64,000 nt of DNA, taken from the NCBI RefSeq assembly GCF_025567045.1, contig NZ_JAOQJK010000001.1:447498-511497 (forward strand), read 5' to 3'. A program made the translations under genes and the position numbers. The stretch is from Barnesiella propionica. Lineage in GTDB: Bacteria > Bacteroidota > Bacteroidia > Bacteroidales > Barnesiellaceae. The notes beneath the pieces are model-generated. The model was given only the letters and a program-made list of their open reading frames with translations. It was not told where the DNA came from and did not search any database. Of this stretch, positions 32,525-53,149 are shown one piece after another (positions within the stretch are counted from its first letter, which is position 1; the number at the start of each line of letters is the position of its first letter).

Positions 32525-34525
32525 TTATTCTCTGGATTTATTAAATTGTTTTTGGGTGATGATACCGTTTTTAATAAGTTCGTAGATTTTTCTTACGCTA
32601 TCTTTGTCGTAATCTTTGTAATTTTCCCCGAACCGTTCCCGAACCTTATCGAGATCGTTCCAGTCTACGAGGCAGGCATGTTTTTTTCGTTTTTCATTTT
32701 TATTGACCGATGTATCAGCCGGAATTTCTTGTAAAGGCCATGTATCCCATTCGTTCGCGAAGAGAGTCGCATTCCAGTGGAGGTGTTCCCCTTTGGCCAA
32801 ATTTATTAATCTTTCTTCTCTCAGTAAGGATAAAAATTCGTTTTCACTGTTCAGACTCCTGATTTTATTGTAGTCCAGTCCTGCCATTTCCAATTTTGTG
32901 TATAAATGCATGGCAGCCGATACGTTTGTCGTTTTCTTGATTTGACTCAGGTTATTCCAGGATATCCTGTCTTTTTCCTCTTTCTTTTGGTTATAATAAT
33001 CATGTATTTTTTTTGCAGCGGCAGTTCTTTCTTCATCGACGATGATATCTTCTGTAAAAATATTTTCATAACAGCCGAAGATATGTATCGTATCGAATAT
33101 CTGGGCGGATGTTTTCATAAATTCATAATCGGGATTGTCATGGACTTTTACCATGATAGGTATGTTCCTGTCTGTTTCTCTGGTTATGAAATGGTTTATG
33201 TCCATAGCTGTTCTTATATTCAGCATATCGTCTCCCAGGCAGATGACCAGATAATTCAATGTATTTATTTTTTTCTTTAATAATTCCCAGAATTCCGTGC
33301 AATGAATATCTGTATTACGGTAAGTGATATTATAGTGTTTGAGACCGGGATATCGGTTGAGAAAACTTCCTTCCTTGCAATCCATTTCTTTATCGATCAC
33401 GGTCGCGTGGAAATCTTTTTTATAAAATTGTCCGAATTCGACCAGGGAACGCAAGACATAATTACCTGTCTCTCCGAATCCCAGTATCATAGTTTCAAAG
33501 CCCGAAAGAGCCATCGCCTTTTCAGTATCTTTTTCAATAAAATTCACGGGAGGATAATGCAGAACCAGTTCTGTTGCGGATAAACGGGAGGGATTGATTA
33601 TATGGACTTCTATATTCTTGTTTTTTATTCTTTTATAAAATATATCGGTTATATAATCGCTATAACTTTTCAGGTATAAAACAACAGTTCCCGAAAAGTT
33701 TTTCATTTGGCCTATCTCCTCCAGTATTTTCAGTGCCGATTGTATATTGTAGTTTTCATCGTCCGACAATAAAAATAAATGAGTATCTCCCTTGATAATA
33801 AGTTTTTCCAGTCCGAGGCTTTTAAAAGTGGATTTGCCCGAGTACTCTTTGTTTATCAGTAAAGCGTCCGTTCTGCATATTCGTTCGAATGCCGTTTCTT
33901 TATTCTGTGAAATAGTTCCGTTGGTTCCGGGTTTAGATGAATTTATTTTATTCGATATTCTTTTATCCAGAAAAACGACAAATCTTTTTTTATCGTTTTT
34001 CAGTAAGTTTTTTCCTAATGTTGCGGATTCTTCGTTGATCCCGAAGAATATATAACTGTTAAGGGGATTCGATATTTTGAGCTTCAGTCTTGATATGAAG
34101 TGTTTTCCGAATAATTGTAGGATTACCATAAAACTTAACAGGAAAGCCGAGAGGTGTATGACAGCGAAGAAGAACATGTATGTTTTATTTTCATGCATGG
34201 CTTCCCGTACCTCCAGCAGGTCGGAATGTAAGAAGAACATGTGGAACGTGGACAGGAAAGAGCGGATAGCTAATGTGGTAAGCGATCCTGAAGTCCCGCC
34301 GTTCATATAACCGATGAAATAAATAACGAGCCCTCCGGCGGCCGTGAGAGGGATCAGTACCCTGTTCCTTAATTTAAGGAACGACTGCCTGTCTTTTATC
34401 AGGAATATACACAACAGGTATATTACCAGAAGAATACATATGGAAGGTATAAAATCTGTTAGAGAAATAGGATAGACTATTTCATGCGTTACGTTGGCAG
34501 TACTGTCGTTCATAATATTATTCAT
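32525..34525 (-). CDS. TrkA-N/RCK-type membrane protein with C-terminal RyR domain (last gene of the TIR-STAND-RyR operon)
   Basis: This 666-residue protein has about four N-terminal membrane helices (near 23-42, 56-74, 85-105 and 118-140). A pair of Rossmann-like NAD-binding domains follows: SYIFFGINEESATLGKNLLK near 176 and GFETMILGFGETGNYVLRSL near 345, in the TrkA-N style. The last 90 residues contain LAKGEHLHWNATLF, then KKHACLVDWNDL and KDYDKDSVRKIYELI, the His-Trp, H-x-CLV and YD landmarks of RyR domains. It overlaps the preceding channel gene by 8 nt. I infer a ligand-gated membrane protein, possibly a channel subunit paired with its neighbour; no clear selectivity filter is seen in this one. 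Confidence 0.75.
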   Translation of the reverse strand: MNNIMNDSTANVTHEIVYPISLTDFIPSICILLVIYLLCIFLIKDRQSFLKLRNRVLIPLTAAGGLVIYFIGYMNGGTSGSLTTLAIRSFLSTFHMFFLHSDLLEVREAMHENKTYMFFFAVIHLSAFLLSFMVILQLFGKHFISRLKLKISNPLNSYIFFGINEESATLGKNLLKNDKKRFVVFLDKRISNKINSSKPGTNGTISQNKETAFERICRTDALLINKEYSGKSTFKSLGLEKLIIKGDTHLFLLSDDENYNIQSALKILEEIGQMKNFSGTVVLYLKSYSDYITDIFYKRIKNKNIEVHIINPSRLSATELVLHYPPVNFIEKDTEKAMALSGFETMILGFGETGNYVLRSLVEFGQFYKKDFHATVIDKEMDCKEGSFLNRYPGLKHYNITYRNTDIHCTEFWELLKKKINTLNYLVICLGDDMLNIRTAMDINHFITRETDRNIPIMVKVHDNPDYEFMKTSAQIFDTIHIFGCYENIFTEDIIVDEERTAAAKKIHDYYNQKKEEKDRISWNNLSQIKKTTNVSAAMHLYTKLEMAGLDYNKIRSLNSENEFLSLLREERLINLAKGEHLHWNATLFANEWDTWPLQEIPADTSVNKNEKRKKHACLVDWNDLDKVRERFGENYKDYDKDSVRKIYELIKNGIITQKQFNKSRE

Positions 34526-36545
34526 AGTTTCTTTTCTCCTTTTCGGTAACTATCACAGGAAGACATACAGATATGCACCGGTCGTATTCCCGGGCGTTTT
34601 TCCCTGTTTTATCCGGTTGTAATGTTTGATAGGGGCGAATGTCGTAATGTTTACGTTTTTTCTTGAATATATTTTTAAGCGATATATCCGCTTTTATTTC
34701 TTTTTGCTCGTCTTCTGTTACGGCGCTGTAACCTATAAGCAGTTCTTCCACATTCCATCGGTTGTGTTCTACTTCGGCCAGCAGTTCTATTTCATGTTCC
34801 GAGAATGTGCGTTCCGGATCAGTCTCCATTATATCTATTCCGAAAGAGTGTAATTTGGTCGGTATGGATTGGGCGTTATAAATATTAGACCATTTTTTCG
34901 CCACTTGCAGTTTATCCCATTCGCATTCTAATTCTTTTTGGGAGGGGAAATGTTCCGGACATTCCGAATGATTGTAGTAATAATCATAGATATAATTTAT
35001 TCTTTTTGCGAATTCCAGATATTTATTTTTTGCTATATAGCAATCGTCCAGCATCCCGAAAGGATATAAATTCTTGTATTTATCCGAATCGGCAGAGGCC
35101 GCAGCTATATCGATGATAGATGAAGATGTCTTTTGATAGACAAGTACCGGTATCTGGTTCTCATAGATACTATCCGGCAAATAGAAACTGCATGCTATAC
35201 TGGCAGGAGGATAATCGAAACAGACCGCTACGGTTACCAGGGCGTCTTTCTCCTGAGCCCAGTTTTTGATATGTTTTTGTAAGACAGGAGATTCTATTTT
35301 GCCTTGTACGAATCGCCATTCTATGTCGATGAAATCCCCCAGGTAATCGAATCCCTCGTTCCGGGGACATTCCGTAAATACGGATGCTATGCCGGTGTCC
35401 ATAAAAAAAGACCGGGCCACATCGAACATATGCCTGTAATGGCTCTTGAATAAGAACATTTCCTGTTCTGCATGCTGGTCTATGAAAGTGATACGGGTCT
35501 TTTTCCCCCGGGCTATGAAATTCGGGAAATGGGCTATATGGGCGGCTTCGGTGGCCAGGGCTATGCCCATTGGTGACATGCCTATAATTATGAGATGAAC
35601 ATATTTCTCGGAATTTTCGGTGATGGGTTCTCTGTCGAGGAGAGGATAGGCCGTATTTCTTTTGTTCCGTTTGTCCGGTATCCATAATTTCTGGGCCCAG
35701 TCTTCATGATAATTAAAAGGAAAAAAGTCTATATGTTTTTTTATTGTGGAGCTCACATCGGCATACTGGAACATGGCAAACGTAGTCTGGAACTCGAACA
35801 GAACGTTGCATTTTAGTTTTCCGCTTTTCCCATCCTGTTTGCAAATGTCCGCGATCAAAGTAAGGCAGTCCATGTTTATGGAGTCATGATCGTATTCGTC
35901 TTTTTCCCCTAACAGGAATACTTCTTTCGCTTGGGTAATGCGGAGCAACTCCAGTTCTTCCCGGGAATCCCTGCGCGCATAAATGAAAGATACCCGTTCT
36001 TCTTCGTTCCCGTTCAGTTCCGAACGCAGTTCCAGCCGGGTTTCTTCTACGTTCCGGCTGGTCTGAAGTACGATATCGCAACCGTTATAATTGTTGTCCT
36101 TGCATAACTGCCGGATGAGGTGGGGAACCATAGGATCAAAGCCTATAATGACGATGTGATTTTTGAAACGGTATCGGATGGTTCCGTTGTTATATCTTCC
36201 TATTCTCCGTTCCATAATGTTGGAGATGGTCGATATTAGCAGCCCGCTCATGAAAATGGAACCCAGCAGGCTGATAATGACGACAAAAGGTTTGCCGCTC
36301 GAATTGATATACAGCTGGTCTCCCGGGTCGATGAAATGACAATATATTTGCCATAACAGGGACGGTTTTCCGTCTTCGCCTTCGATAGAGATGTCTTGTC
36401 CCATTAATGTCCCGAAAAGACCCAGCGACAAGAATATCAGGGCTGTGATCCCCAGCAGGAAGAATATCTGTCGCCACATGCCTCCTGAGATTATCCGGTC
36501 GATTGTACGGGAACTGAAAAATGAATATATATGTCGGTTCTTCAT
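34518..36545 (-). CDS. CASTOR/POLLUX-like RCK ion channel with C-terminal RyR domain
   Basis: This 675-residue protein has TM1 at 24-48 (IFFLLGITALIFLSLGLFG), a re-entrant segment YCHFIDPGDQLYINSSGKPF, and TM2 at 88-110 (FVVIISLLGSIFMSGLLIST). It continues into FKNHIVIIGFDPMVPHLIRQ, the first of two RCK/TrkA-N domains; the second is near VHLIIIGMSPMGIALATEAA. This layout is that of CASTOR/POLLUX-type channels, which in plants conduct ions across the nuclear envelope. The C-terminus (about 580-660) is a RyR domain: LLAEVEHNRWNVEELLIGY, then IRPYQTLQPDK and YDRCISVCLPVI. It is an ion-conducting effector candidate gated by a small ligand. It overlaps the next gene by 8 nt. Confidence 0.78.
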   Translation of the reverse strand: MKNRHIYSFFSSRTIDRIISGGMWRQIFFLLGITALIFLSLGLFGTLMGQDISIEGEDGKPSLLWQIYCHFIDPGDQLYINSSGKPFVVIISLLGSIFMSGLLISTISNIMERRIGRYNNGTIRYRFKNHIVIIGFDPMVPHLIRQLCKDNNYNGCDIVLQTSRNVEETRLELRSELNGNEEERVSFIYARRDSREELELLRITQAKEVFLLGEKDEYDHDSINMDCLTLIADICKQDGKSGKLKCNVLFEFQTTFAMFQYADVSSTIKKHIDFFPFNYHEDWAQKLWIPDKRNKRNTAYPLLDREPITENSEKYVHLIIIGMSPMGIALATEAAHIAHFPNFIARGKKTRITFIDQHAEQEMFLFKSHYRHMFDVARSFFMDTGIASVFTECPRNEGFDYLGDFIDIEWRFVQGKIESPVLQKHIKNWAQEKDALVTVAVCFDYPPASIACSFYLPDSIYENQIPVLVYQKTSSSIIDIAAASADSDKYKNLYPFGMLDDCYIAKNKYLEFAKRINYIYDYYYNHSECPEHFPSQKELECEWDKLQVAKKWSNIYNAQSIPTKLHSFGIDIMETDPERTFSEHEIELLAEVEHNRWNVEELLIGYSAVTEDEQKEIKADISLKNIFKKKRKHYDIRPYQTLQPDKTGKNAREYDRCISVCLPVIVTEKEKRNYE

Positions 36546-36562
36546 ATTATTGTTTTCCGGTG

Positions 36563-36856
36563 TTACCGGTCTTTCTCTATTTTAAAACCGTGTTTCATTA
36601 CGTACTGTAAAGTCGTTGTCGCCGTTTTACGGTCATATTCCCGTTCCGATTCCGGTAATTCTTCATAAGGAACCAGGCAGGGATGGGTTTTTAATTTATC
36701 ATTACGTTCCGGGCCTTTTACCCAGCCTTCAGCTTTGCGGGAGGCTACCCATGTATCGTGCACGTTCTTTGCTATGTCGTCGATAAGTTCTGTCAGCTCT
36801 GGCGGCAAGGGCGTATTTTCGTCCGGTTGTGATACGGTTGTGTGGTTATTATTCAT
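36563..36856 (-). CDS. Stand-alone RyR-domain protein
   Basis: This 97-residue cytoplasmic protein is a single RyR repeat. After a Pro-rich start (NTPLPPELTELIDDIAKNVH) come DTWVASRKAEGWVKGPERND, THPCLVPYEELPESEREYDR and TATTTLQYVMKHGF. These show the family's W-x(n)-GW-x-x-GP, HPCLVPYxxL and E-x-x-YDR-x-T landmarks very clearly. RyR repeats occur in ryanodine receptors and, singly, in many bacteria and phages, where a ligand-binding role is suspected. It lies 3 nt after the exported paralogue gene and 17 nt before the channel gene, so it is part of the operon; it may be a soluble ligand buffer or channel subunit. Confidence 0.9.
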   Translation of the reverse strand: MNNNHTTVSQPDENTPLPPELTELIDDIAKNVHDTWVASRKAEGWVKGPERNDKLKTHPCLVPYEELPESEREYDRKTATTTLQYVMKHGFKIEKDR

Positions 36857-36859
36857 GAA

Positions 36860-39800
36860 TTAATGAAATAAGTTGTTTAGAGATTCTTCGTTTTCTACGA
36901 TATGTTTATCGAAATTCCCAACGAGATAATAGAATTGAGTATTGTCGAAAAGAATTAATTTGTCATATTTTTTTCCTTTTGATTCTCCTAATATTATTTT
37001 ATCGTTTTCTTCCCGGGATAATATCTTGTATTTCTTTTTATTCAGCGATCCCAGAACCGTTTGGTATGTTTTGATTGCCTGCGGATCATTGCTGTTACAT
37101 ATGATTGCATAAACTTCCGTACAATAACTGAATATCTTAGCTTGTTTGGTGAGCTGATCCCACATATTTCCCGACTTTTTATTTAAATTTATCGTAGTTA
37201 TATTTTCAATTTTAGTTAGTTTATTAAATATATCTATAGGGGAAAGATTTTCTTTCTTTTTCATCTCCGGTTCTTTTTTAATCCCGGTAGGACGTGAAGC
37301 TGTAATTTTTTTAGTATTGTCTTTTTCCCATTTCTTTGCCATGACCTTGAGTCGTTCGTAGTTTGTATCTGAAACATTAGCGGTTTTGAACTTGATTCCT
37401 AAGGTACGGGCATAGGAACCTATGCTATCTGTTCGTGAGCCGTCCGTGGTAAGATATAGATTCCGGAGAGTGAATTTTCTCTCAGGATAGTAAGTAATCA
37501 GGTTTTCGAGTCCGGACGATTCTTCTTCAAACAGCCAGATATTTCCCAAAGACCTGTTTTCGAATGCTATCAAAATAGCCGGATCTTTCAGCCCTTTCTC
37601 CTTGAATACATGATTGTTATAGGCCGATTTGGTTGGTAAAACCAGGATGATCTCGTTTTTGCCGGTATCGTTGCCGGACAGGTCGGCATTCACTGTGATA
37701 TCTTCATTATAGGTCAGATATGTATTTAGCGCTGTTTCCAGGCGTTCGCATTCTTTCTTCGTATAACATAACTGATGGGTGGTGAATCCCAACTCAGAGG
37801 GTGTTCCTTCTGGCAGACGGATAGAAACGACTTGACTGCTCTTGTTTTCTATATCATGTCTCAAAACCCATATTTCTTTTTCACCATGAGCCGATAAAAC
37901 CGTTTCTATGTTTAGCTCATTTTCGCTGTTGCCGTTATATTCGGTACAAGTTTGGGGATACCTCCAATTGCCGTATTTAAGTAGAATGTCGCCGTCCTTT
38001 AACAAGTTAGTATATCCTATCGTATCTATTACCTGAATACATACGGCTTTGGGAACATTGGTTATGAATTCTTCCATGTCGCCGATATCGTTTCCGTTTT
38101 CGTCACAATAATAACTCTTTCCGTCAGGAGCGAAGCGCATGTAGTGGTATACGGCATCATTGTTCATGATATAAGCCGGTTCGCCGAATTCATTTTCCCC
38201 TATAAAAGAACTGAAGTTTCCATATATATTGTTTGACACCCGGACGTTATAGTATAGTGCTCCTTCATAATAAGTCCGGGATGGCTTTCCAAAATCATTT
38301 AATGACATCTGTGATAAGATATTATTAAAACCTTTATCATATTTCATGGAGACGCTCGATATGACTTTTTGAGAATTGTCATATATGGTAATTAATTTTG
38401 TCCGGGATACCGTATCAATGGCGATAGTTCTTATGCTCCAGTTCTGGTCATCGGGTATGACGTAGTTATTCAGTGTATCTGCATAGAACTCATAAGATCT
38501 TTGGGGAACCTTGTCATATTCGTAAAAAGTGTAATGTTTGGAATATCCTCCGTTCATTATCGGTTTTCCGTTCAGATCATAATATTCGACAAGAACGTCA
38601 TTCCCGTGGGAATCCGCCGAATCTATCCGGCAGATATTCTTATCGAGCCACTTGTATATGGTTTTGCCGTCTTTATAGGACTGCCTGTCATATGTCAGGT
38701 ATAAACTGTCTCCTCCGGCACTATATTCCTGTAAAGATTTTGTTTCTGATCCTTCGTAAGTAATAACTTGTTTACAGCAATTCAGTACATTATTTACATA
38801 ATTACCCTGGGGATTTTTCAATTCAAAATAGATTTCATTACCGTTCTTATCGTAATCTTTCCGGATTTGAGCGATGTTCAGGCTATCCGATCCGGTAAGA
38901 TTTCCGTTTATATCGAAATAAGATACTTTGATAACCTGTCCTTTTTCATTAAATTCGTTTGTTATGCAATGAACGCCGTTTTGGTTTTTATCTTTTTTAT
39001 TATTTTCATCTAAAAATTCTTGTTTAATCAGCCTGCCGTATTCATCGTATGTATACTTACTTTTAATGTGATTGTCGCTTTTGCTTGCTGATATACGTAT
39101 CGGTTTCCAATTATTATCGTAATAACATGAACTTGTTTGCTGTCCGTTTTTATCATATTCCGCGTACCAGCCGCAATTACCATAATCGTCGATCATATAA
39201 TTGCCGATAGCATTACAGGAAGCTTCTTTTATTTGTAATCCGTCTTTGTCGTATTCCTTTTTTGTCATATAAGCGCCATCCTTATTTTTGGCCCGGTAAC
39301 CCTGTTCGTCCATATATTCATATAATATTTCATTACCCTGCTCATCGTAAGTGATGTGTACATAATTAGCTCCTGCTTCCAGGCTGTCCTTTCTCATTTT
39401 TACGGGCATTCCCCAGCTGTCGGTATAACTTCCTGTTATTTTATTCTTTTCAATAAATACGGGTGTATAGCAATAGATCAGGTTCATATCTTCATCATAG
39501 GCGCGTTCCTGAATTACGGTTTTACCTTTGGGATCTCCTACCAGTTCCCACTGGCAGATTGTTTTCAGCCTTTCTTTCCACAACTCGTCCGCGCCGGAAT
39601 CATTGTCGTCGTATTGGTTGACCAGGTAAGTTGCCATGGAATGATTTGACGTTAACCGGTGGTAACCGTCGAATGCTTCTATTTTGGTCCAGTGACCTGC
39701 CTCGTTCATTTCCGATAATCTGAAATAAAAAGTAAGGTGTGAAGCTTCTTCCTTTGTCAGCGGTTTTCCGTAACCTTTGAACCAACCGTATTGTTTAATA

Positions 39801-40072
39801 ATTCGGGCATATAGTTCGGGCTCTTTTTTTATTTTATTATGTTCCCGTTTTGTGGAAATAGTTTTGCTTATTCCATAGTTATTGATGTTGATTTTATTGG
39901 CAGGTTTTGCACCCGTTTTTAGGATATTGTCCTGATCGGCTTTGCCTTTCTCCGTGTTACCGAAGATGGATGGAAGAGCGGTTTTTCCTGCATTCGGGGC
40001 AGAGGCATTTCTTTCTTGCGCAAAAGGGGTCATCGTTATTAATAACGACAGGGCCAGTATTATTTTTCTCAT
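36860..40072 (-). CDS. Exported repeat protein, paralogue of the STAND protein's extracytoplasmic region
   Basis: This 1070-residue protein has a signal peptide (MRKIILALSLLITMTPFA, then Q). Residues about 85-720 contain many short repeats of the type Y-D-x-x-G-(N/Q)-(E/x) (TYDEQGNEILYEYMDEQG, KYTYDEYGRLIKQEFLDENN), like WG/YD-type beta repeats. Around 680-770 a PDZ-like segment appears (GYTNLLKDGDILLKYGNWRY). The last 200 residues are a separate, unassigned domain. The first section (QYGWFKGYGKPLTKEEASHL, then FRLSEMNEAGHW) and the PDZ-like section closely follow the periplasmic half of the STAND protein encoded just upstream. It is probably a periplasmic partner or decoy of that sensor. The gene overlaps the STAND gene by 4 nt (ATGA). 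Confidence 0.75.
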   Translation of the reverse strand: MRKIILALSLLITMTPFAQERNASAPNAGKTALPSIFGNTEKGKADQDNILKTGAKPANKININNYGISKTISTKREHNKIKKEPELYARIIKQYGWFKGYGKPLTKEEASHLTFYFRLSEMNEAGHWTKIEAFDGYHRLTSNHSMATYLVNQYDDNDSGADELWKERLKTICQWELVGDPKGKTVIQERAYDEDMNLIYCYTPVFIEKNKITGSYTDSWGMPVKMRKDSLEAGANYVHITYDEQGNEILYEYMDEQGYRAKNKDGAYMTKKEYDKDGLQIKEASCNAIGNYMIDDYGNCGWYAEYDKNGQQTSSCYYDNNWKPIRISASKSDNHIKSKYTYDEYGRLIKQEFLDENNKKDKNQNGVHCITNEFNEKGQVIKVSYFDINGNLTGSDSLNIAQIRKDYDKNGNEIYFELKNPQGNYVNNVLNCCKQVITYEGSETKSLQEYSAGGDSLYLTYDRQSYKDGKTIYKWLDKNICRIDSADSHGNDVLVEYYDLNGKPIMNGGYSKHYTFYEYDKVPQRSYEFYADTLNNYVIPDDQNWSIRTIAIDTVSRTKLITIYDNSQKVISSVSMKYDKGFNNILSQMSLNDFGKPSRTYYEGALYYNVRVSNNIYGNFSSFIGENEFGEPAYIMNNDAVYHYMRFAPDGKSYYCDENGNDIGDMEEFITNVPKAVCIQVIDTIGYTNLLKDGDILLKYGNWRYPQTCTEYNGNSENELNIETVLSAHGEKEIWVLRHDIENKSSQVVSIRLPEGTPSELGFTTHQLCYTKKECERLETALNTYLTYNEDITVNADLSGNDTGKNEIILVLPTKSAYNNHVFKEKGLKDPAILIAFENRSLGNIWLFEEESSGLENLITYYPERKFTLRNLYLTTDGSRTDSIGSYARTLGIKFKTANVSDTNYERLKVMAKKWEKDNTKKITASRPTGIKKEPEMKKKENLSPIDIFNKLTKIENITTINLNKKSGNMWDQLTKQAKIFSYCTEVYAIICNSNDPQAIKTYQTVLGSLNKKKYKILSREENDKIILGESKGKKYDKLILFDNTQFYYLVGNFDKHIVENEESLNNLFH

Positions 40073-43000
40073 AACGGTTTTATGATCTTTTCAAGTCTTT
40101 CTTTTTCTTTTTCTGTATAATAAATGGGATATACCTCTGCCCGGAGAGCTCCGGCAGCTGGTTTACATTCAATGATCCGGCTTGTCTTTTTAACAGGGTC
40201 GTGCCGAACGGCCGTGACCGTACGGGATGAATGCTTTAAATTTTGTAATTCCGAATAAAGACGGCTGTTGTCGGGATTTTTAAAAGAGAATTTCCAGGAA
40301 CCTATGCCGATAAGGATATCTCCGTCCTTTAGCCCCGATTTATAAGCTGTCCCGTTTTTGCTTTCCAGCCTTATAGTCATAGCTTGCGGTGCATTAGAGA
40401 GAGGAGACACCTGGGGTTTTCCATTTTGGATTTTCATATCCGTCCAGTTCCCGTTTTGTTTGCAATATACATAGGATTCTTCTCCGAATTCGTTGATCCC
40501 TTTCAAGTATTCGAATTTCCCGCTAAAATCTTTTATGTACCTTATTTTATAATAATACAGTCCGTCTACGTCCCATGGGGCATAACGTACAGGGCTTCCG
40601 TCTATGCCCATGACCGATTGGGAAATTAGTTCTCCCAGTTCGTCATATTCATAAAGATAAGAGAATATAATTTCGTTATTCTTATTATATAATGTCCGGC
40701 TTAACAGGTTGTTTCCCGTTGAATAGATGCAAGAATCCATGGCATAATCTCCGGTGTTATCGGAACAATAGAGTTTCAGTCCGGTATCCAGGAATTGCGT
40801 CACGACACTTATTTTTTTATCCGGCAAAGTATCTTTATCAATTACGTATTTGTGATATCCGTTATACATGACAGGTTGGTTGTTCTTCCCGTAATATGCT
40901 ATTTCGCAGAGGTCTCCGTTGTTATATTTTTTCTTTTCGTTGAGATAAGGCAGGCTGTCGTTGTCCGCATCTATCGTTACAATATCCAACAAAAGTTTTC
41001 CGTCTTTGCCGAATGTGTTCGTCTGGCTGTATATCGCTTTTTCTTTTCCGTCGATTAACCGGTACCGGGTTTCGTTCAGCAAGTTCTCTTCATGATTCCC
41101 GTACCTATATACGATCCTGGAATAATCTCCTTTCCGGTGAGTAGAGACAGGTTGTCCGTCAATGTCGTAGAAACAGACTAGCGTATCGTTACCCGATCTG
41201 TCTTGTTTGTTTATAATTATCGAACCGTGCTGGCCGGTAGCTAAGACAGGTTTTTGCTCTGCATTGTAAAATCGCCGGGTCGTCTGGTTGTTCTCCAGTT
41301 CCCTTTCTTCATAAGCATATCCGTCTTCGTTATTTACCATCCGGTCGTTATTCCGGTATTTGCATTTCTTCCACTGTCCGTATTTGTCGAAATCGGTATA
41401 TTCGATACGGTCATATCCTTTCACCGTAAGAGGATAACCGTACTGGTCTATGTTGGTCCGTTTTTCGGTTATATGGGTGAGTGAGTCTATCGTATAGGTA
41501 TATCCGTATACTTTTTCATAATTATCTTTCGGGCTGCCGCTTTCATCAAAGAACATGTATTTCACTTCATGGCCGGCCTCGTCCATCGATATCCTCATGC
41601 GGTTAGCTCCGTTACTCCTTACTTTTAGCGGTTTTCCGTATTTATCCATATAGATGGTCCATATTTGCTTGGTTCCGCTTTCGTTATTGTCAGAGATGAA
41701 AGGTTCGTTTTTAACTTTGTTGAATGATTGGGAAATATCGTTGATACTCTGGAAATAAGATAATACGTAAAGTATGGAATTATCTTTCCCGTACGCGATT
41801 TCTTTGGCTACGTTTCCTTTATTATCAGGCTCATATCTCCAATAACTTATTTTTCGGAGCAGATCGGCGAAACGGTATGCATCATTGTCCGAGATATCCT
41901 CATGCAGCGATACTAAAGGTATATGATAGGATTTATTTGTTGTCGTCTCTCCGTAAGCGTTGATGATCTCTGCCCGGGTAAAATGTTTTTGCCAGTGTCC
42001 CTGCCGTGATAAACGGTAGTATGTGCCGAATGTGCTGCGTTCCTTTTCGTCGAGCTGTTTGCCTATTCCCTGCGGCCATCCTTGTACTTTCGTGAACGAT
42101 AAATAATATTCCGACTCGGTTTTCTCATAGGCATACCAATACAAGAATAGGCCTCCGGAAACGAGAAATAAGATAGATACTATGCCGATGAGCAGATTCC
42201 GGATTCTTTTCCGGCTCCTTATTTTTTCCCTTTCCGCTTCTTTTTCTATCTTTTCTCTTTTTCTTTTTTCTTCTTCTAATATTCTTCTCTGTGCCGCTTC
42301 CTGCTTCAGCCGTGTTTCTTCTTGTTTTTTCAGGAGCTGCCGTTTTTCCCTTCTTTCTCCGGCTACCTTGCAGAGGATATCATGGATGAATTCGATTCGT
42401 ATAGAGTTTCCCCAGGCATATCTCCGGATCAGTCTCTGGTCTTCCAGAATATCCAGTTCTTCTTCTTTTACTCCCGATTTAAGTGCGTTGTAAAGCGAAA
42501 TATTCTCACGCCTTCCTTCATCGTTCAGCAGGCTGTCTTCCAGATAATCCGCGCTTGACCGGGATATTTTGCTCATCGACTCTTCGTAAAAAGACTGGAT
42601 GATGTTTCCTCCGAATTTATCGACTAACTCGCTCGAAATGTAATTTGTAGATGTATCTTTCTTTTTATATAATTCACTCAGGAATAAGGAGAGCATCGCC
42701 GAATCGACCTGTATTTCAGGTTTTCCGTCTAATTCGAACGAAGAATCTCCCGTAACTTTTATGATGATCTGTTTAGCGACCTTCTTGTCTATCAGCCCCG
42801 GAATAGGATCTGTGATAATAGTAGCAGCCTGTTCTTCGTTGATGGGCTGCAGGCAGTAGCGGTTTTGTTTTAAGACAGGTATATGGGTGATATTCCGTTC
42901 CAGATAAGAAAGGAAATCTTCACGCAGGGAAAGTACCAGATGAAAATCCGAATGGGGCAGATATTTTGTAGTGATTGGCTCTTCCAGGTCTATGCCTTGC

Positions 43001-43644
43001 AGCAGGTCTTCTATGCAATAAGTATCGGAACCATCGGTCTCCTTGACTTTTTCGTTATTATAATCGGAGGGTTGCGACTGTAAAATGTAATCGGGAACGA
43101 TGCCGTTGAGCAGGTCGGCCAGTTCATCGAAGAAACGGGATATTTTATTCCGGTCTTTTTCGAGTGTAAATATCTCTTCAAACTGGTCTATGACGATCAA
43201 AGGAAAGATTCTTTCATTCTTTTCATCTCTAAAAATATGACGGTGGAAAAACTCCCATAAGCTTTCTTCTCCCGTACGAATAACGGGCACGAGTTCTTCT
43301 ATGCTCCCTTTTGTCTTTTTGAATTGTTTATTTCCCAGGTCGTCCAAATGTTCTTTCCTAAGATTATCAAGGCACTCTATAACCCTTTTTTTTATTTGGG
43401 CGATATAAGGAATATCATTATGGACTAAGCGGATATCCACGGGAAATAAATTGGCGTGACGGGCTATCGGGAAGACTCCGGCATTGAGGATTGACGATTT
43501 TCCGATACCCGATTTTCCGTAAATAATAGTCTGGACGTTCGTTATTATATTTTGAGAAAGAAGCCTTATTTCTTCGCTCCTTCCATACAGGATCTGTCCT
43601 TCCTTATATGTTTTTAGACCTAACCACGGATTTTCGTTTTCCAT
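40069..43644 (-). CDS. Membrane-anchored STAND NTPase with large extracytoplasmic repeat and PDZ-like region
   Basis: This 1191-residue protein starts with an nSTAND1-type signature (NPWLGLKTYKEGQILYGR). Walker A is YGKSGIGKSS (42-51) and Walker B is PLIVIDQFEEIF (148-159). STAND helical segments follow, ending in IEFIHDILCKVAGERREK, then a charged coiled coil (430-480) and one membrane helix (482-504). Residues 505-1191 are outside the cytoplasm: GWPQGIGKQLDEKERSTF, about ten YDxxG-type repeats, and a PDZ-like segment GLKDGDILIGIGSWKFSF. STAND NTPases are signal-driven oligomerising switches. Here the sensor would face the periplasm and the switch the cytoplasm, where the SIR2/TIR protein is encoded 9 nt upstream. 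Confidence 0.82.
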   Translation of the reverse strand: MENENPWLGLKTYKEGQILYGRSEEIRLLSQNIITNVQTIIYGKSGIGKSSILNAGVFPIARHANLFPVDIRLVHNDIPYIAQIKKRVIECLDNLRKEHLDDLGNKQFKKTKGSIEELVPVIRTGEESLWEFFHRHIFRDEKNERIFPLIVIDQFEEIFTLEKDRNKISRFFDELADLLNGIVPDYILQSQPSDYNNEKVKETDGSDTYCIEDLLQGIDLEEPITTKYLPHSDFHLVLSLREDFLSYLERNITHIPVLKQNRYCLQPINEEQAATIITDPIPGLIDKKVAKQIIIKVTGDSSFELDGKPEIQVDSAMLSLFLSELYKKKDTSTNYISSELVDKFGGNIIQSFYEESMSKISRSSADYLEDSLLNDEGRRENISLYNALKSGVKEEELDILEDQRLIRRYAWGNSIRIEFIHDILCKVAGERREKRQLLKKQEETRLKQEAAQRRILEEEKRKREKIEKEAEREKIRSRKRIRNLLIGIVSILFLVSGGLFLYWYAYEKTESEYYLSFTKVQGWPQGIGKQLDEKERSTFGTYYRLSRQGHWQKHFTRAEIINAYGETTTNKSYHIPLVSLHEDISDNDAYRFADLLRKISYWRYEPDNKGNVAKEIAYGKDNSILYVLSYFQSINDISQSFNKVKNEPFISDNNESGTKQIWTIYMDKYGKPLKVRSNGANRMRISMDEAGHEVKYMFFDESGSPKDNYEKVYGYTYTIDSLTHITEKRTNIDQYGYPLTVKGYDRIEYTDFDKYGQWKKCKYRNNDRMVNNEDGYAYEERELENNQTTRRFYNAEQKPVLATGQHGSIIINKQDRSGNDTLVCFYDIDGQPVSTHRKGDYSRIVYRYGNHEENLLNETRYRLIDGKEKAIYSQTNTFGKDGKLLLDIVTIDADNDSLPYLNEKKKYNNGDLCEIAYYGKNNQPVMYNGYHKYVIDKDTLPDKKISVVTQFLDTGLKLYCSDNTGDYAMDSCIYSTGNNLLSRTLYNKNNEIIFSYLYEYDELGELISQSVMGIDGSPVRYAPWDVDGLYYYKIRYIKDFSGKFEYLKGINEFGEESYVYCKQNGNWTDMKIQNGKPQVSPLSNAPQAMTIRLESKNGTAYKSGLKDGDILIGIGSWKFSFKNPDNSRLYSELQNLKHSSRTVTAVRHDPVKKTSRIIECKPAAGALRAEVYPIYYTEKEKERLEKIIKPL

Positions 43645-43653
43645 ATCTTTTTA

Positions 43654-45021
43654 TTAAAGAAGGTTTACTTTATTCATTATGTCATCTGCAATTTCCGAAA
43701 AGTCCATATCCGGTTTGTAGAAAAATGCATTGTGACTTTTCAACCGGTTCGGCAGTTTTATGTTAGGATTGTACATGTCGAAATTTTCTTCGCATATGGG
43801 CAGTATGAATTCCCGTCCCAAACCTATGGCTTGTTCTATGGCATAATCCCATTCTTTGCGATATACATGGTAATCATTCACTTCTTCCGAAATATGATTG
43901 GATAGTAGTGCTACAAAATATTTAGTCGTCTTGATCGCATCCTGGATTTGTTCCATGAAGTCGGCTCCCGTAGATAAGTTTTTCATATCGTACCACACAT
44001 TGAGTCCTTTGGCGGTTAAAGTTTCATATAACGTTTTGGCGATTTCTTTATTCGAACGCGAATAAGAGATGAAAACATCCGTATTCATTCTCGGATGGTC
44101 GAACTTCGTGCGGTTGAAATCTTCCATCCGTTCGCTTAACCGGTGCTCTATTTCATCAATGACTTTTTCAGGATCTTTTTGAATAAACGTATTGGTCCGG
44201 TTCAGGAAATCGATCAGGCTGTCTTCTACATCATTATCGACCATCATACCCGACGGGTTCGATTCGAGGGATATTTTCATCGAATACCAGATGAACCTGA
44301 ATAACCAGTCCGAGTAGTTGCCTCCCAGTACCAGCAGATATTTGTTGCTTATCACCTCTGACAGGACTTTGGGACGGAACCCTTCTGTGAGCCATGATTT
44401 GCAGAAACTCAGCATATCATGATCCGTTACTACGAAACGATGAGGATTCTTGTCTACTTTCCCGAACATGTAGTATAGAGTAGGGTTGTATATGTCCGAT
44501 TTTTTAGCGATATCTCCTTTGTTCGGTACATTGGTCGTGGCCGGGTTATTGCTGAACGCCAGTACTTTTACATTCCTTTCTTTCCATACCTCCCTCATTG
44601 TGTTTTCCACGATAGGATCGAATGTGGTAGTAATAACGAACGGGAATTGCTTAATAGAAAGAAGCCTTTTCAATGTACGGGAAGGTTCGAACTTTTTTAA
44701 CTGGAAGATATTGTTCAATATTCCGTAAATGTTATCCCTGTTCTTGAACTTCTGGATGAACTTATCGTCATATACCAATTGGGAAAACGTTTGAGGATGA
44801 GTTTCTATCTGGCATAATTTCGCGATAGAATCTATTAAAGTCTGGTAAAGATTGACTTCGTTGTCTATCAGTATATTCTGTCCTATCACAGGAATTACGT
44901 TTCCGGCCATTATCTGATCTGTCAGTATAGTCCATTTGCGTTCTTCTTCGATTTTTACGGGATCGATGTCGAAACCGGCAGGGAACAAGTCTGAAAGTTG
45001 GATATCGTTTAAATCTTCCAT
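43654..45021 (-). CDS. SIR2-like and TIR domain fusion protein
   Basis: This 455-residue cytoplasmic protein has a SIR2-like Rossmann domain at about 28-300 (NVIPVIGQNILID near 41, FVITTTFDPIVEN near 128, YYMFGKVDKNPH near 183, YLLVLGGNYSDWLFRF near 228). A TIR domain follows at 313-450 (DVFISYSRSNKEIAKTLYE, GLNVWYDMKNLSTGADF, FVALLSNHISEE, YRKEWDYAIEQAIG). The TIR keeps a Glu at 390 in the position of the catalytic glutamate of TIR NADases. In the SIR2 part the usual Asn of TTNxD is Thr and the usual His of xHG is Phe, so it may bind NAD without cleaving it. TIR and SIR2 domains are core parts of several NAD-based anti-phage systems; this protein is the likely signal generator or effector. 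Confidence 0.85.
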   Translation of the reverse strand: MEDLNDIQLSDLFPAGFDIDPVKIEEERKWTILTDQIMAGNVIPVIGQNILIDNEVNLYQTLIDSIAKLCQIETHPQTFSQLVYDDKFIQKFKNRDNIYGILNNIFQLKKFEPSRTLKRLLSIKQFPFVITTTFDPIVENTMREVWKERNVKVLAFSNNPATTNVPNKGDIAKKSDIYNPTLYYMFGKVDKNPHRFVVTDHDMLSFCKSWLTEGFRPKVLSEVISNKYLLVLGGNYSDWLFRFIWYSMKISLESNPSGMMVDNDVEDSLIDFLNRTNTFIQKDPEKVIDEIEHRLSERMEDFNRTKFDHPRMNTDVFISYSRSNKEIAKTLYETLTAKGLNVWYDMKNLSTGADFMEQIQDAIKTTKYFVALLSNHISEEVNDYHVYRKEWDYAIEQAIGLGREFILPICEENFDMYNPNIKLPNRLKSHNAFFYKPDMDFSEIADDIMNKVNLL

Positions 45022-45120
45022 GTATGTACGATTATTTGATGTGAAAATTAAGGTAATGAGGCAGCCGGAAGCTCAGTCTTTATCACGTACGATGTTATTT
45101 CGTATCTTGCTGTTTATTTC

Positions 45121-45152
45121 CCGGACAGGTTCCGCCGCGGTTGCCTGTCCGG
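45121..45152 (-). terminator. Hairpin in the 142-bp gap before the SIR2/TIR gene
   Basis: Arms 45121-45129 (CCGGACAGG) and 45144-45152 are perfect complements around a 14-nt loop. The minus-strand continuation is A-rich with few U, so this may be a weak terminator or attenuator dividing the operon into a peptidase part and a sensor part. No -7 consensus is visible between it and 45021. Confidence 0.45.
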
Positions 45153-45163
45153 TATAATAAAGA

Positions 45164-45673
45164 CTATAATTTATTTCCGCATGAACTGCAAAATTTTGCA
45201 TCCCCTTCGAGTTGTTTCCCGCAGTGGGTACAGAATTTTCCCGGGGCAGAGTTCGCCGGAGCCGCATGTACCTGCGAACTTTCCCGTTGGATAGTATCGG
45301 CGGCGATTTCCAGCACCTTATCGTCTATCTTGGATTGAGAGATAAGCCCTGATATCTGGGTAATGATTACCGGCCAGAAGAAAAACAGGGAGATGACCGT
45401 AGGAACGGCCTGCTGTCCGAATATACCTACTCCGGCTTCGATGCGGATGTTGTTACCCTGCGGGAATATATTTACCTTAAGGGCTGTTTTCATACCTAAC
45501 ACGGCTTTGAACAAGTTCCCCTTGGTAATGGATATGTCATAACCTCCGCTTATTAATTCTTCGGTTTGTACTTCGTAGTTTTCGTTGGCGAACGATGTGG
45601 CGATCTCTTGCGCTACCATAGGGATGAGGGCAGGAGATGCAAAAAAAGTTTTGGATGATTTGAAAGTTCCCAT
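45164..45673 (-). CDS. Membrane-associated protein with C-terminal zinc ribbon
   Basis: This 169-residue protein has an N-terminal alpha/beta part (FFASPALIPMVAQEIATSF, VFGMKTALKVNIFPQG-type strands) that resembles small bacterial domains of unknown function. One hydrophobic segment follows (TVISLFFFWPVIITQISGLI). The C-terminus is a zinc ribbon (FCTHCGKQLEGDAKFCSSCG). The gene is 6 nt downstream of the 87-residue gene and belongs to the M48 part of the operon. A similar CxxC zinc ribbon ends the M48 peptidase, suggesting that both use the same docking surface. Confidence 0.7.
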   Translation of the reverse strand: MGTFKSSKTFFASPALIPMVAQEIATSFANENYEVQTEELISGGYDISITKGNLFKAVLGMKTALKVNIFPQGNNIRIEAGVGIFGQQAVPTVISLFFFWPVIITQISGLISQSKIDDKVLEIAADTIQRESSQVHAAPANSAPGKFCTHCGKQLEGDAKFCSSCGNKL

Positions 45674-45679
45674 GGCTGT

Positions 45680-45943
45680 TTATCGTTTATGATATAGATC
45701 CTGTATTTCTTTATATTGGTAAATGGCGTGTAGTACGCTCATCTCGGCAAGCAGTTTTTCCACCTCGGCAAGTTGCTCCGGAGGAAAGTTCTTTTCGATG
45801 TGTTTCAGTAACGATATTACCAGCCGGGTCTGCTCTTCCAGTTCTTCGTCGGTTACGATGCGGTCTTCCATTATTTTTTTGAATGTGGGTTGCGTGGCAA
45901 CCAGTTCGTCTATGCGAAACATTCCGTTCTTATCGAATAGCAT
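45680..45943 (-). CDS. Small helical protein of unknown function
   Basis: This 87-residue protein (MLFDKNGMFRIDELVATQPT) is acidic and mostly helical, with heptad-like Leu/Ile spacing (EEQTRLVISLLKHIEKNFPP). No motif is recognised. It sits between the peptidase gene (23 nt) and the zinc-ribbon gene (6 nt) in the operon and may be an adaptor. Its position and coupling, rather than sequence similarity, support that it is real. Confidence 0.65.
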   Translation of the reverse strand: MLFDKNGMFRIDELVATQPTFKKIMEDRIVTDEELEEQTRLVISLLKHIEKNFPPEQLAEVEKLLAEMSVLHAIYQYKEIQDLYHKR

Positions 45944-45966
45944 AAGGGGATAGGGTTTATGTTGTG

Positions 45967-46848
45967 TTATTTAATTTTACGTCCGCAATGCTTGCAGTAT
46001 ATCCATGATTCTTCTGTTTCCTTATTACAATGCGGGCAGATAAGTCCTCTTTCCTGCAATTGCATGGTTTTTATGATTTGCCGGTACGATTCTGTTTTGC
46101 TCCATTTGAGTATTTCCCTCACGCGAATGGCGGTGAACGGATGACTGGAGTCCAGAATGGCATAATTTTGCAACAGGTTGTCCCAGGTATTTTTTTGTAA
46201 CGAATCGTAATAATCGGCTTGTTTTACAAATTCTTCCACATTTACATCCTTGGTAATAGAGAGTGGACCTCCTGCCAGCCTTATCTGGAAAGCAACGACT
46301 TTATCGGCATCGCACAACGCGACGGCGGCGGCCCTGTCGGCCGACAGTTCGCTGCGACGGCTCCAGTACATCAGGGCCCAGTAGACTGGAATGACGGCTT
46401 TACCCAGCAGACCCAGTTTGTTTATATTCTGGAACAGCATCTGTGCCAGTGTGTAATATAACATGTGCCGGCAGGCTATATGTCCGCATTCGTGGGCAAT
46501 CACCGAGGAAACCTCTTCCTCGGTAAGGTATTCCAGCAATCCCGATGTTACCGAAATCATCGTGCGCGTATCTCCCATAGCATAAGCATTGGGAACCGGG
46601 TTCATCTCCAGATAGAATTCCGGTTCTTCTATCGTAAGTTTCCGGCATATCGGAGGCAGTTTATGGTAAATGTGCGGTAGCTGGGTTTCCGAAAGCCTTA
46701 TTTTATTAGCCATATTCAGGCCGTGAGTAACTTGTTCGTCATAATAGCGCATAAACAGTTTCATCGCGGCGGCGAAACCCGGAAGCGCCTGCATATTCCG
46801 TAAGGCGGCTTCGTCTTCGGGGTGTATATAATCTGCTGGACGTATCAT
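45967..46848 (-). CDS. M48-family metallopeptidase with C-terminal zinc ribbon
   Basis: This 293-residue zinc peptidase has HExxH in IAHECGHIACRHM (119-123) and the third ligand Glu167 in SRRSELSADRAAA, the M48/HtpX signature. Around 128-160 is hydrophobic (LAQMLFQNINKLGLLGKAVI, then PVYWALMYW), so it may be membrane-bound. The C-terminal 25 residues form a zinc ribbon (CPHCNKETEESWIYCKHCG). M48 enzymes such as HtpX act in membrane protein quality control. As the first gene of the TIR-STAND-RyR operon, behind a consensus promoter, it may activate or cleave components of the system. Cytoplasmic-side activity is inferred. Confidence 0.85.
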   Translation of the reverse strand: MIRPADYIHPEDEAALRNMQALPGFAAAMKLFMRYYDEQVTHGLNMANKIRLSETQLPHIYHKLPPICRKLTIEEPEFYLEMNPVPNAYAMGDTRTMISVTSGLLEYLTEEEVSSVIAHECGHIACRHMLYYTLAQMLFQNINKLGLLGKAVIPVYWALMYWSRRSELSADRAAAVALCDADKVVAFQIRLAGGPLSITKDVNVEEFVKQADYYDSLQKNTWDNLLQNYAILDSSHPFTAIRVREILKWSKTESYRQIIKTMQLQERGLICPHCNKETEESWIYCKHCGRKIK

Positions 46849-47171: not shown

Positions 47172-48338
47172 TTAGAAATTCGCACTTAGATTCAGCATAT
47201 AAGTATGAAGGTTCTCTCTTTTTTCATCGGCCCTCACTCCCGTAGTGAAATTGCACCGGAAGCCCAGGTAAAGAGAGTGGCTGGGCGTCATTTTATATTC
47301 TACTCCGCCGCCCAGCGAACCGCCGTACAGGAAGACACATACATCTTTTTTTCTGTATCCTCTCGTTCCTTTATATTCCCCGTCGACATAAGGAGTTTCC
47401 TGTCCCGATAACCAGACATCCAGGGAAGGACCCAGTTCTACGTAAGGGATGAATTTCCCCGTCATAAAATTAAAGGAACACCGGAACATTAAAGGAACCT
47501 GTATCGATTGCCTTTCATACTCGTATGTGAACCTGTCTCTTTGTTTTTTGTCTAAAATGTAATCGTTTTTTCCGTTCTTATTATCTGTATAAAGATAGTT
47601 TATTTCGGGGTGGAAACTGAATTTGTCATCCAGCGGGATTTGCATGAATATACCGGCTGAAAAACTGGCGGATACGTCGTACGAGTAATCCACGTTTTTG
47701 TATTTGGGTTTGTTCAGTCCCGCACCCACCGTCACACCGATACGGAACCGCGGGAAAAGATGAGTGTTGCATTTGGTATAAGCATTGTACATTTTTATGA
47801 GGGAATACCGCTCCACTTTCATTTTTTGTTTGTCTATTCTCTTTATTTCCGGACAGTCTTTCGCTTTCTCCCTCAGGAGTTGCCGGTAGTTCTCTCCGTC
47901 GGCATTGACAGGTTGCAAGGGAGTGTCGCCCTCCTGTATATAGAAAAAGTCTTTTTCTTCATCTGCGTAACAATATAAGGTGAAGTCCTTATCTTTAAAT
48001 ATCTCTTCCAGGAATATTTTTTTCTCTTTGTCTTTAATGCGTATCGAGGCGCTTATGTATTTGATTCCGTTGATATATCCGTATTCGATGATTTCGTCGG
48101 GATAAAATGTCTGGGAGTCATGGTTTATCTGGTGGGGAATGATCAGGGCCTGGGATCTGAGTACATTATTCTGCAGCATGATTTTTATACCCGATACTAC
48201 TTTATTGTCCGTTGTAATATAATAACCCTCCTTGCTGCCGGAGATTCTTACACTGGCCGGATCCGACAGGTCGGTTTGGGCATAGGTATGAAATACTATA
48301 CCTATGAATAGGAAAAGGATATAGATCGTTCTGTTCAT
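47172..48338 (-). CDS. PorT-like outer-membrane beta-barrel protein
   Basis: This 388-residue protein has a signal peptide (MNRTIYILFLFIGIVFHTYA, then Q). Residues about 25-185 are an N-terminal soluble part with beta character (VRISGSKEGYYITTDNKVVS). The C-terminal 190 residues show alternating barrel strands (RIGVTVGAGLNKPKY, FSFHPEINYLYTDN, KFIPYVELGPSLDVWLSGQ) ending in a Phe (LNLSANF), as expected for the PorT/OMP_b-brl_2 family. The function is unknown. It lies directly upstream of the TIR-STAND-RyR operon on the same strand but is cut off by a terminator, so membership in that system is possible but not shown. Confidence 0.78.
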   Translation of the reverse strand: MNRTIYILFLFIGIVFHTYAQTDLSDPASVRISGSKEGYYITTDNKVVSGIKIMLQNNVLRSQALIIPHQINHDSQTFYPDEIIEYGYINGIKYISASIRIKDKEKKIFLEEIFKDKDFTLYCYADEEKDFFYIQEGDTPLQPVNADGENYRQLLREKAKDCPEIKRIDKQKMKVERYSLIKMYNAYTKCNTHLFPRFRIGVTVGAGLNKPKYKNVDYSYDVSASFSAGIFMQIPLDDKFSFHPEINYLYTDNKNGKNDYILDKKQRDRFTYEYERQSIQVPLMFRCSFNFMTGKFIPYVELGPSLDVWLSGQETPYVDGEYKGTRGYRKKDVCVFLYGGSLGGGVEYKMTPSHSLYLGFRCNFTTGVRADEKRENLHTYMLNLSANF

Positions 48339-51020: not shown

Positions 51021-51111
51021 CAAAACAGAGAATAAAGAATCTGGAAAGGGAATAAGGAAAAGAAAAAACATGTATCTTTACCGGAGTATAACGAATAAAC
51101 CGGAACCATTC

Positions 51112-51993: not shown

Positions 51994-52413
51994 CCGCAGT
52001 CCGGATATATTGTTTACAACCATACAAAACTTCCATCCGGTACACCTTGTATGTTTTTGATCTCCTTATAACGCCTGTTATCTGTTGTATAATCACATCT
52101 TTCGTGGAAAGGAAATATATATATATACAGGGCGGGGGACATTTCTTTTCGGTTTTTTTATCCCGGATCGAAATAAAAACGCCCCATGCAATATATCGCA
52201 GGGACACTTTTATTTTTAATTAAATCACTCGCCTGGGATTCTCTTAAGAGAGTTATTATGTTTATATTTAAAACTCTATATTTTTAGCTCCAAACATATC
52301 CATGAATTATCCCACTAATTTGCTACTTGCCTTTGCAGTAGTTTGCTCATGGAGAATACTGGGACAAAGATATATCATTATTTTATGATTTATCAAAAAA
52401 CAAAAAAGTTTTT

Positions 52414-53145: not shown

Positions 53146-53149
53146 TTAA

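Follow-up and report, generated by a model that had tools for sequence, protein, structure and literature searches.

The stretch analyzed here, called the window below, comprises 64,000 nucleotides of the Barnesiella propionica contig NZ_JAOQJK010000001.1 (positions 447,498 to 511,497). It contains an operon of nine open reading frames (ORFs) on the minus strand, from p1 (32525-34525) to p9 (45967-46848), with transcription running from p9 to p1. In transcript order the eight junctions measure 23, 6, 142, 9, -4, 3, 17 and -8 nt. The nine minus-strand genes and their spacing had been described in an earlier reading made from the letters alone (the sequence-only reading), and the ORF places and junction lengths match that description as written. 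Pfam domains above cut-off in the window proteins are M48, TIR, SIR2-like, nSTAND1 and RyR; RCK-type domains are added by profile and fold matches, so that the proposed domain set (M48, SIR2/TIR, STAND, RyR, RCK) holds. The genes that carry the argument are the following, with TM denoting transmembrane helices, aa amino acids and values after domain names E-values.

32525..34525, minus strand: p1, predicted 3-TM pore, two RCK-type domains and a RyR tail, 666 aa
32561..32833, minus strand: RyR tail of p1, about residues 565-655, with H581, W584, H616 and D640
34518..36545, minus strand: p2, predicted 2-TM pore, two RCK-type domains and a RyR tail, 675 aa
34524..34799, minus strand: RyR tail of p2, residues 583-674, with H594, W597, H633 and D655
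36303..36359, minus strand: pore helix and filter-like loop FIDPGDQ of p2, residues 63-81
36563..36856, minus strand: p3, stand-alone RyR domain, 97 aa (PF02026 4.6e-26)
36860..40072, minus strand: p4, exported protein with YD/RHS-like repeats, 1070 aa (YD_repeat_2x 7.5e-4)
40069..43644, minus strand: p5, nSTAND1 NTPase, membrane helix and outer repeats, 1191 aa (nSTAND1 1.2e-22)
43654..45021, minus strand: p6, SIR2-like/TIR protein and predicted signal maker, 455 aa (TIR_2 3.6e-20, SIR2_2 1.9e-7)
43762..44082, minus strand: TIR domain of p6, residues 314-420, with the conserved E390
44254..44904, minus strand: SIR2-like half of p6, roughly residues 40-256, predicted to lack catalytic activity

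The stand-alone protein p3 scores 91.3 bits against PF02026 (Pfam cut-off 27.4). Full-length animal ryanodine receptors are matched at about 1e-37 to 1e-42 when their four repeats are summed, and the best single repeat of RyR1 at about 2e-13. Among solved structures p3 matches the RyR3 domain 6uhb (4.7e-27) and 3nrt (1.5e-25), a putative bacterial ryanodine receptor that we take to come from Bacteroides thetaiotaomicron. The top PDB match (1.4e-51) is the two-domain RyR1 chimera 6uhi; the letters of the aligned stretch are the same as those of bacterial RyR chains, and 6uhi is therefore no evidence for a likeness to animal receptors. For the tails of p1 and p2, a single-sequence Pfam scan returned no PF02026 match up to E 0.1. 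Alignment to the p3 RyR family with hhalign gave a probability of 96.9 for the p1 tail (E 1.7e-10) and 59.8 for the p2 tail (E 8.8e-5), and ten other segments used as a control reached at most 6.5. The PF02026 cut-off is passed by relatives of p1 in loci L046 (727 aa) and L066 (762 aa) and genome G148 (736 aa), and by a p2 relative in genome G177 (626 aa). Searched against the PDB, the p1 family profile finds the chimera 6uhi (5.7e-6) and single bacterial RyR chains (0.009-0.010); the p2 family profile finds no RyR chain up to E 1.

A likely ligand is suggested by phages. According to a May 2026 preprint, 2'- or 3'-cyclic ADP-ribose (cADPR) is bound by six out of eight phage RyR homologues, and the 3'cADPR-binding residues of the phage protein RyDEP are H75, W78, H100 and D117 (PMC13232231). 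The operon domain belongs to the same PF02026 family and has the same four ligand residues, which in p3 are H33, W36, H58 and D75 with identical spacing (3, 22 and 17). In each family, with the window sequence included, the pocket is nearly invariant: H, W, H and D are kept in 48, 48, 47 and 48 out of 48 p3-type sequences, in 38, 38, 37 and 37 out of 38 p2-family sequences, and in 19, 19, 18 and 19 out of 19 p1-family sequences. Since phage RyR domains bind 2'cADPR and 3'cADPR (PMC13232231), these nucleotides are the likely ligands of the operon domains. RyDEPs are viral counter-defence enzymes or sponges (PMC13232231), whereas in the operon the domain is a host one and forms part of channel-like fusion proteins. 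RyR domains similar to p3 occur in 260 out of 50,697 phage records. Two short records of faecal phages, MT837259.1 (931-1182) and MT836850.1 (1150-1392), encode RyR domains that share 55-57% identity with p3 across 84-87% of the protein; the matches in the other 258 records span <80%.

The phage proteins also raise the alternative of an off-switch, in which p3, and perhaps the tails, would hydrolyse or sequester the TIR-made signal against self-harm while the channels are opened in some other way. Phage RyR proteins cleave or sponge the signal (PMC13232231), and the two residues of the RyDEP catalytic dyad are kept in the p1, p2 and p3 families. Cleavage is reported there for the founding RyDEP only, and the other tested homologues did not cleave despite their high conservation (PMC13232231). 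Attachment to two different RCK gating rings would moreover suggest gating, as a sponge needs no tether to a channel, and an off-switch is considered improbable.

In the predicted models and fold matches, p1 and p2 both show a TM-pore helix-TM unit followed by RCK domains. The pore helix of the p2 model (residues 63-72) precedes the second TM helix (82-119), and in the pore loop of the p2 family D73 is kept in 35 out of 38 sequences and G75 in all 38. The pore loop of p1 reads FFLHSDLLEV, with D102 in 19 out of 19 family sequences. The TVGYG-type filter of canonical K+ channels is found neither there nor in FIDPGDQ of p2. Single-protein RCK matches stay under the Pfam cut-off (TrkA_N 0.0012, Slo-like RCK 5e-4); the p2 family profile matches GsuK, DMI1 and CASTOR at E 0.003-0.02. 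An AlphaFold2 (AF2) model of p1 (pLDDT, the predicted local distance difference test, 85.1; pTM, the predicted template modelling score, 0.80) matches GsuK at 4.5e-7 and DMI1 at 5.4e-5 in Foldseek, and in the structure search VIA the KtrAB chain 5but_A (17.8, root-mean-square deviation 3.0) and DMI1 (17.7, deviation 5.3). Over the pore and RCK parts the best Foldseek match is GsuK. The VIA rows for p2 scarcely reach residues 592-675, and the fold matches concern the pore and RCK parts. The profile and fold matches support the RCK-type calls that the sequence-only reading had made for two RyR proteins, and p1 and p2 are very likely RCK channels bearing RyR tails. Of thirteen pattern matches for p1 relatives on viral contigs, none was confirmed.

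A parallel in architecture is the CASTOR/POLLUX/DMI1 group of plant nuclear Ca2+ channels, in which a pore is likewise followed by an RCK ring. The gating rings of DMI1 and CASTOR rank high in the fold searches with p2 and p1, and in the p2 loop an aspartate and a glycine take the place of TVGYG. The operon channels differ in being bacterial and RyR-tailed, the sequence similarity is remote (E 0.004-0.02), and only the aspartate and the glycine of the filter are common to p2. In CASTOR the predicted filter is ADS(A)GNHA and conduction requires its aspartate (PMC6697748). GsuK differs in its 565-residue chain without a RyR match and in its aligned filter, TLGFGD, unlike that of p2. With animal ryanodine receptors only the RyR (R12) domain is common, the operon pore and RCK parts being of another family. 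A conserved pore-loop aspartate without TVGYG makes Ca2+ or Na+ more likely than K+ as the conducted ion, and Ca2+ is tentatively put forward as a main ion of p1 and p2, with the balance tilted against it.

The candidate signal maker is p6. Solved relatives of p6 include the NAD(+) (nicotinamide adenine dinucleotide) hydrolase AbTIR (E 4.3e-7) and the SARM1 NAD hydrolase. Within the 121 p6-family sequences used (the window and 120 listed among 1136 p6 relatives), the TIR residue E390 is kept in all 121 and aligns with the glutamate of AbTIR that we take to be catalytic. The SIR2-like half has Ser/Thr in the place of Asn and Phe in the place of His in 121 out of 121 sequences, these being presumably the canonical catalytic residues of the SIR2 fold. 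The same SIR2 residues are missing in all eight long p6-type proteins that adjoin p2 (window included). The SIR2 half was therefore rejected as a nucleotide enzyme, and the TIR half should be responsible for any nucleotide chemistry. The sequence-only reading had SIR2/TIR making or destroying a nucleotide; that chemistry is retained and moved to the TIR half. From its residue pattern, the p6 TIR domain probably makes an ADP-ribose-type product.

The gene upstream of p4 encodes p5, whose nSTAND1 match reaches 81.5 bits (Pfam cut-off 27.1). Hydropathy predicts a single hydrophobic helix at residues 484-502, which would place the repeat half outside the cytoplasm, in agreement with the envelope-facing STAND protein proposed earlier. 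The outer repeat region of about 690 aa ends, by eye, in a PDZ-like GLKDGDIL. The exported p4, with an N-terminus that looks signal-like by eye, is a paralogue of this outer half (BLASTP E 7e-39). In loci L045 and L046, a TIR domain (TIR_2 2.4e-14 and 7.3e-11) is joined by a predicted membrane helix to p4-like repeats, which p4 of the window matches at 1e-18 and 1e-6, and these fusions tie the outer region to TIR.

Gene neighborhoods were examined around relatives of p2. The genome scan confirmed 234 out of 238 stretches, and the best 80 loci, many of them ended by contig ends, were analyzed. A RyR gene adjoins p2 in 44 of these 80, lies within 2 kb in 55 and is present anywhere in the locus in 60. 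The other parts are less frequent: p6-type genes in 19 loci, p9 in 11, p5 in 10, p8 in 9, p7 in 9, p1 in 6 and p4 in 4. L016 and P0019 each encode a p2 protein with an additional RyR domain fused to it. Locus L098 (with L123) carries RyR-p9-p8-p7-p6-p5 in the order of the window, and L121 a RyR-p6-p5 run. Out of 35 loci of at least 19 kb, 34 were used to count TIR_2, which lies within 10 kb of p2 in 15 and within 5 kb in 13 (0.60 expected within 5 kb); TIR matches in L042 and L049 were left out because they correspond to no ORF of the right length and are likely on other contigs. Only 0 to 4 PF02026 matches were found per genome in 22 p2 genomes, and a chance neighborhood should thus be rare.

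Further gene arrangements stand out. L081 (2743-7860) brings two RyR architectures together, as the gene for a 596-aa RCK-RyR-type protein has close by it one for an 896-aa P-loop protein that contains two RyR domains. A gene of roughly 190 aa precedes a RyR-domain protein of 320-385 aa near p2 in L077 (12016-13690), and similar pairs occur in L011, L013, L014, L016, L025, L045 and L066, the RyR-domain protein having a zinc-ribbon-like end in several of them; by eye, the 190-aa genes (cluster c3) resemble those of sigma factors, and the one scanned had no Pfam match. PrsW-type intramembrane protease genes recur in p2 gene runs, in L066 (18682-19386, Pfam-checked) and six other loci. In L005, L007 and L010 (Bacteroides), p2 follows inositol-monophosphatase-type, phosphoribosyltransferase-like and RyR-protein genes (Pfam checked in L007 only), and the RyR protein of 205-219 aa carries an extra part.

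Linkage was counted in two even genome draws. Among 198 Bacteroidales genomes, p2 is present in 13, RyR in 24 and p6 in 4. Eight out of 13 p2 genomes have a separate RyR gene, and 15 out of the 185 remaining genomes have RyR (Fisher 9e-6), a count that leaves out G177 because its RyR match is its own p2-like tail; in 7 out of 13 the separate gene is no more than 2.4 kb from p2. Ten out of 24 RyR genomes have TIR_2 within 5 kb of RyR (G038, G039, G045, G122, G130, G152, G177, G197, G204 and G212; compiled by hand from the RyR and TIR_2 match lists), with 0.14 expected (p about 1e-17), a linkage about 70 times the expected rate. The N6_Mtase control lies within 5 kb of RyR in 0 out of 24 genomes (0.34 expected), with 102 matches vs 33 for TIR_2. 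Among 392 Bacteroidota genomes of the phylum draw, RyR matches occur in 24 (23 over cut-off), and TIR_2 lies within 5 kb in five of these (G220, G231, G252, G434 and G602; 0.52 expected, p 8e-5). A chance cluster was rejected by these counts, and so was an artefact of defence islands, as the methylase control speaks against mere co-residence with restriction genes. Failed RyR and TIR calls or rare co-occurrence had been named as what would refute the sequence-only reading; the calls survive and the core of RCK-RyR, RyR and TIR recurs across Bacteroidota, with the remaining genes of the operon present beside it in less than half of the loci.

These counts bear on the alternative that two independent modules share one transcript, with p5 and p6 (and p4) killing by TIR depletion of NAD+ and the channels p1-p3 acting separately under the control of another adenine nucleotide such as ADP-ribose, NAD+, ATP or ADP, without a TIR-made messenger between them. 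The families are broad (1136 p6 relatives, at least 662 p2 relatives), p6-p5 pairs occur without a nearby RyR gene in L122 and L124, genome G070 has no RyR match, G117 has its RyR on another contig, and structure titles show that GsuK has been solved with NAD and with ADP bound. Independence of the modules is at odds with the excess of TIR-RyR linkage and its absence from the methylase control, with RyR within 2 kb of p6 in two out of four p6 genomes, and with TIR genes adjoining RCK-RyR-type genes in the distant architectures of L086, L102, L108 and L116. The two-module explanation is accordingly thought rather unlikely.

We favour a relay, in which a TIR-made cADPR-type nucleotide would bind the RyR tails and open the channels; stated without a claim on Ca2+, it falls just short of an even chance. 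First, p5 and its exported paralogue p4 would sense an event at the envelope or a phage and switch on p6, a step suggested by the p5-p6 pairing and the natural fusions of TIR, membrane helix and repeats. Second, the TIR half of p6 would turn NAD+ into an ADP-ribose-type signal, with the SIR2-like half as a dead scaffold, an activity suggested by the residue patterns of the two halves. Third, the signal would bind the RyR pockets of p1, p2 and p3, because the phage relatives bind it and the pocket residues are kept. Fourth, p1 and p2, with their resemblance in build to GsuK and CASTOR/DMI1, would alter cation flow, and fifth, this flow would halt growth or kill the infected cell. The single domain p3 may buffer or clear the signal or pair with the tails, and p7-p9 may regulate or reset the system. 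That the p6 product acts through the RyR tails is an evenly balanced proposition. Of the interpretation given in the sequence-only reading, the RyR/RCK/TIR core and the outer STAND half remain, and catalysis by SIR2 is dropped.

Several observations weigh against the relay, beginning with the dyad residues kept in the RyR families, which are also suited to hydrolysis, so that the domains may terminate the signal instead of reading it. None of the 124 loci examined, many of which were ended by contig ends, contains the complete nine-gene set. The p2 tail matches the RyR family modestly (hhalign probability 59.8), the p1 and p2 models are monomers without lipid or ligand, and the TIR glutamate is present in only six out of eight distant p6 relatives beside p2. 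The R12 pocket of RyR3 accommodates an ATP analogue, and the ligand may therefore be another adenine nucleotide. No separate RyR gene lies near p2 in 6 out of 13 p2 genomes; in three of the six (G053, G138 and G163) the p2 match is confined to the N-terminal third of the profile, the RyR match is the protein's own tail in G177 and on another contig in G117, and G174 has none. In the draw of 198 genomes, 14 out of 24 with RyR have no TIR_2 within 5 kb of it, which also favours two modules, and the same is true of 19 out of 24 in the phylum draw, where in addition the TIR stretch of G252, one of the five positives, contains a stop. Sixteen of these 19 encode another type of protein, in which two RyR domains stand in tandem; complete copies are about 900 aa long and show, by eye, a P-loop (in L103, the one scanned, Pfam ATPase models stay below cut-off). 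Loci of 13 of the 16 genomes were inspected, and the tandem protein is seen in L103-L107, L109-L115, L117, L119 and L120. RCK-RyR-type proteins carry the RyR domain in L102, L108, L116 and L118 (TrkA_N and RyR over the Pfam cut-off in L116, the other three assigned by our own profiles), and L101 is a mixed cluster. As TIR_2 occurs near the RCK-RyR types and in none of the 16 genomes with the tandem type within 5 kb of RyR, the linkage is mainly one of the RCK-RyR branch.

The known system closest in logic is Thoeris, where the effectors are defined by SLOG/STALD or Macro domains; TIR-made nucleotides act on several kinds of effector. Here as there, a TIR protein is predicted to make an ADP-ribose-type signal for an effector that is a distinct protein and binds the signal through a domain of its own. 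The operon differs in having RyR as reader and a predicted ion channel as effector, in a TIR domain fused to a degenerate SIR2 half, and in the pairing of that TIR protein with a membrane STAND protein. No ThsA-type SLOG/STALD or Macro domain was found in the nine proteins with Pfam and PADLOC, the PADLOC ThsB models match the p6 TIR domain weakly (2.6e-7 at best), and the NCBIfam Thoeris type III model scores 29.8 bits, far under its cut-off of 220. The catalytic Asn and His of the antiphage sirtuins (DSR/ThsA NADases) are absent from p6. The operon works like Thoeris in logic and, judged by its effector, is not Thoeris.

The first three genes of the transcript are as follows.

45967..46848, minus strand: p9, M48-type zinc peptidase with a C-terminal zinc ribbon, 293 aa (Peptidase_M48 1.3e-21, Pfam)
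45680..45943, minus strand: p8, 87 aa, often adjoining p9 and p7 in relatives
45164..45673, minus strand: p7, C-terminal zinc ribbon resembling that of p9, 169 aa (Zn_Ribbon_1 1.5e-8, Pfam)

The zinc-peptidase motif HECGH of p9 was spotted by eye, p7 has one membrane helix predicted from hydropathy (residues 89-107), and a Pfam scan of p8 gave no model above cut-off. PADLOC returned no match for eight out of nine operon proteins, and what p6 matched there were general TIR and SIR2 models; PHROGs and PADLOC together gave little for the nine genes besides TIR and RyR domain matches. Promoter and terminator sites in the window are not clearly more numerous than in shuffled sequence. A possible further member of the operon is an outer-membrane beta-barrel gene (47172-48338) that precedes p9 by 323 bp on the minus strand. 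At 52-58 kb of the window the GC content falls to 27-30%; a type IIG restriction-modification gene occupies 53150-56212 of this low-GC stretch and a DUF5712 fragment 56383-56832, and the gene of a HEPN/Pol-beta protein (50980-51993) comes just ahead of it. A defence or mobile island near the operon (50980-56832) is possible.

That the operon serves phage defence is about as likely as not. The competing proposal is that of envelope stress and ion homeostasis, in which the sensor would report cell-wall or osmotic damage and the channels would restore ion balance. It gains from the outer repeats and PDZ-like motif in p4/p5, from the M48 peptidase of the operon and the PrsW-type genes in relatives, from the eight proteins without a PADLOC match and from RyR genes not lying near N6_Mtase in the genome draw. 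This proposal fits poorly with the patchy occurrence (13 out of 198 genomes), with the TIR and STAND partners, with a type IIG restriction gene and DUF5712 fragment 6-10 kb away, and with the p3-like RyR domains of the 260 phage records, a family some members of which disarm TIR immunity (PMC13232231). The envelope-stress proposal is given little probability.

A literature search found no description of a host RyR-RCK-TIR operon, nor host RyR-domain readers or RCK-channel effectors; most subscription papers lay outside its scope and an earlier mention is possible. In a 2020 survey, no prokaryotic lineage is credited with a system comparable to eukaryotic Ca2+ stores (PMC7016017). The fullest version of the circuit, in which CASTOR-like channels read a TIR-made cADPR isomer through their RyR domains and the entry of Ca2+ brings about immunity, is doubtful as a complete bacterial system. 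Each of its three parts is at work without the others elsewhere: in animal RyR signalling, in plant TIR immunity and in plant symbiotic Ca2+ channels. If the proposal is true, the phage RyR proteins would be relatives of host readers. Ryanodine receptors are channels long linked with cADPR (PMC13232231), and the old question of whether cADPR acts on the RyR R12 domain would then become testable in a small bacterial channel.

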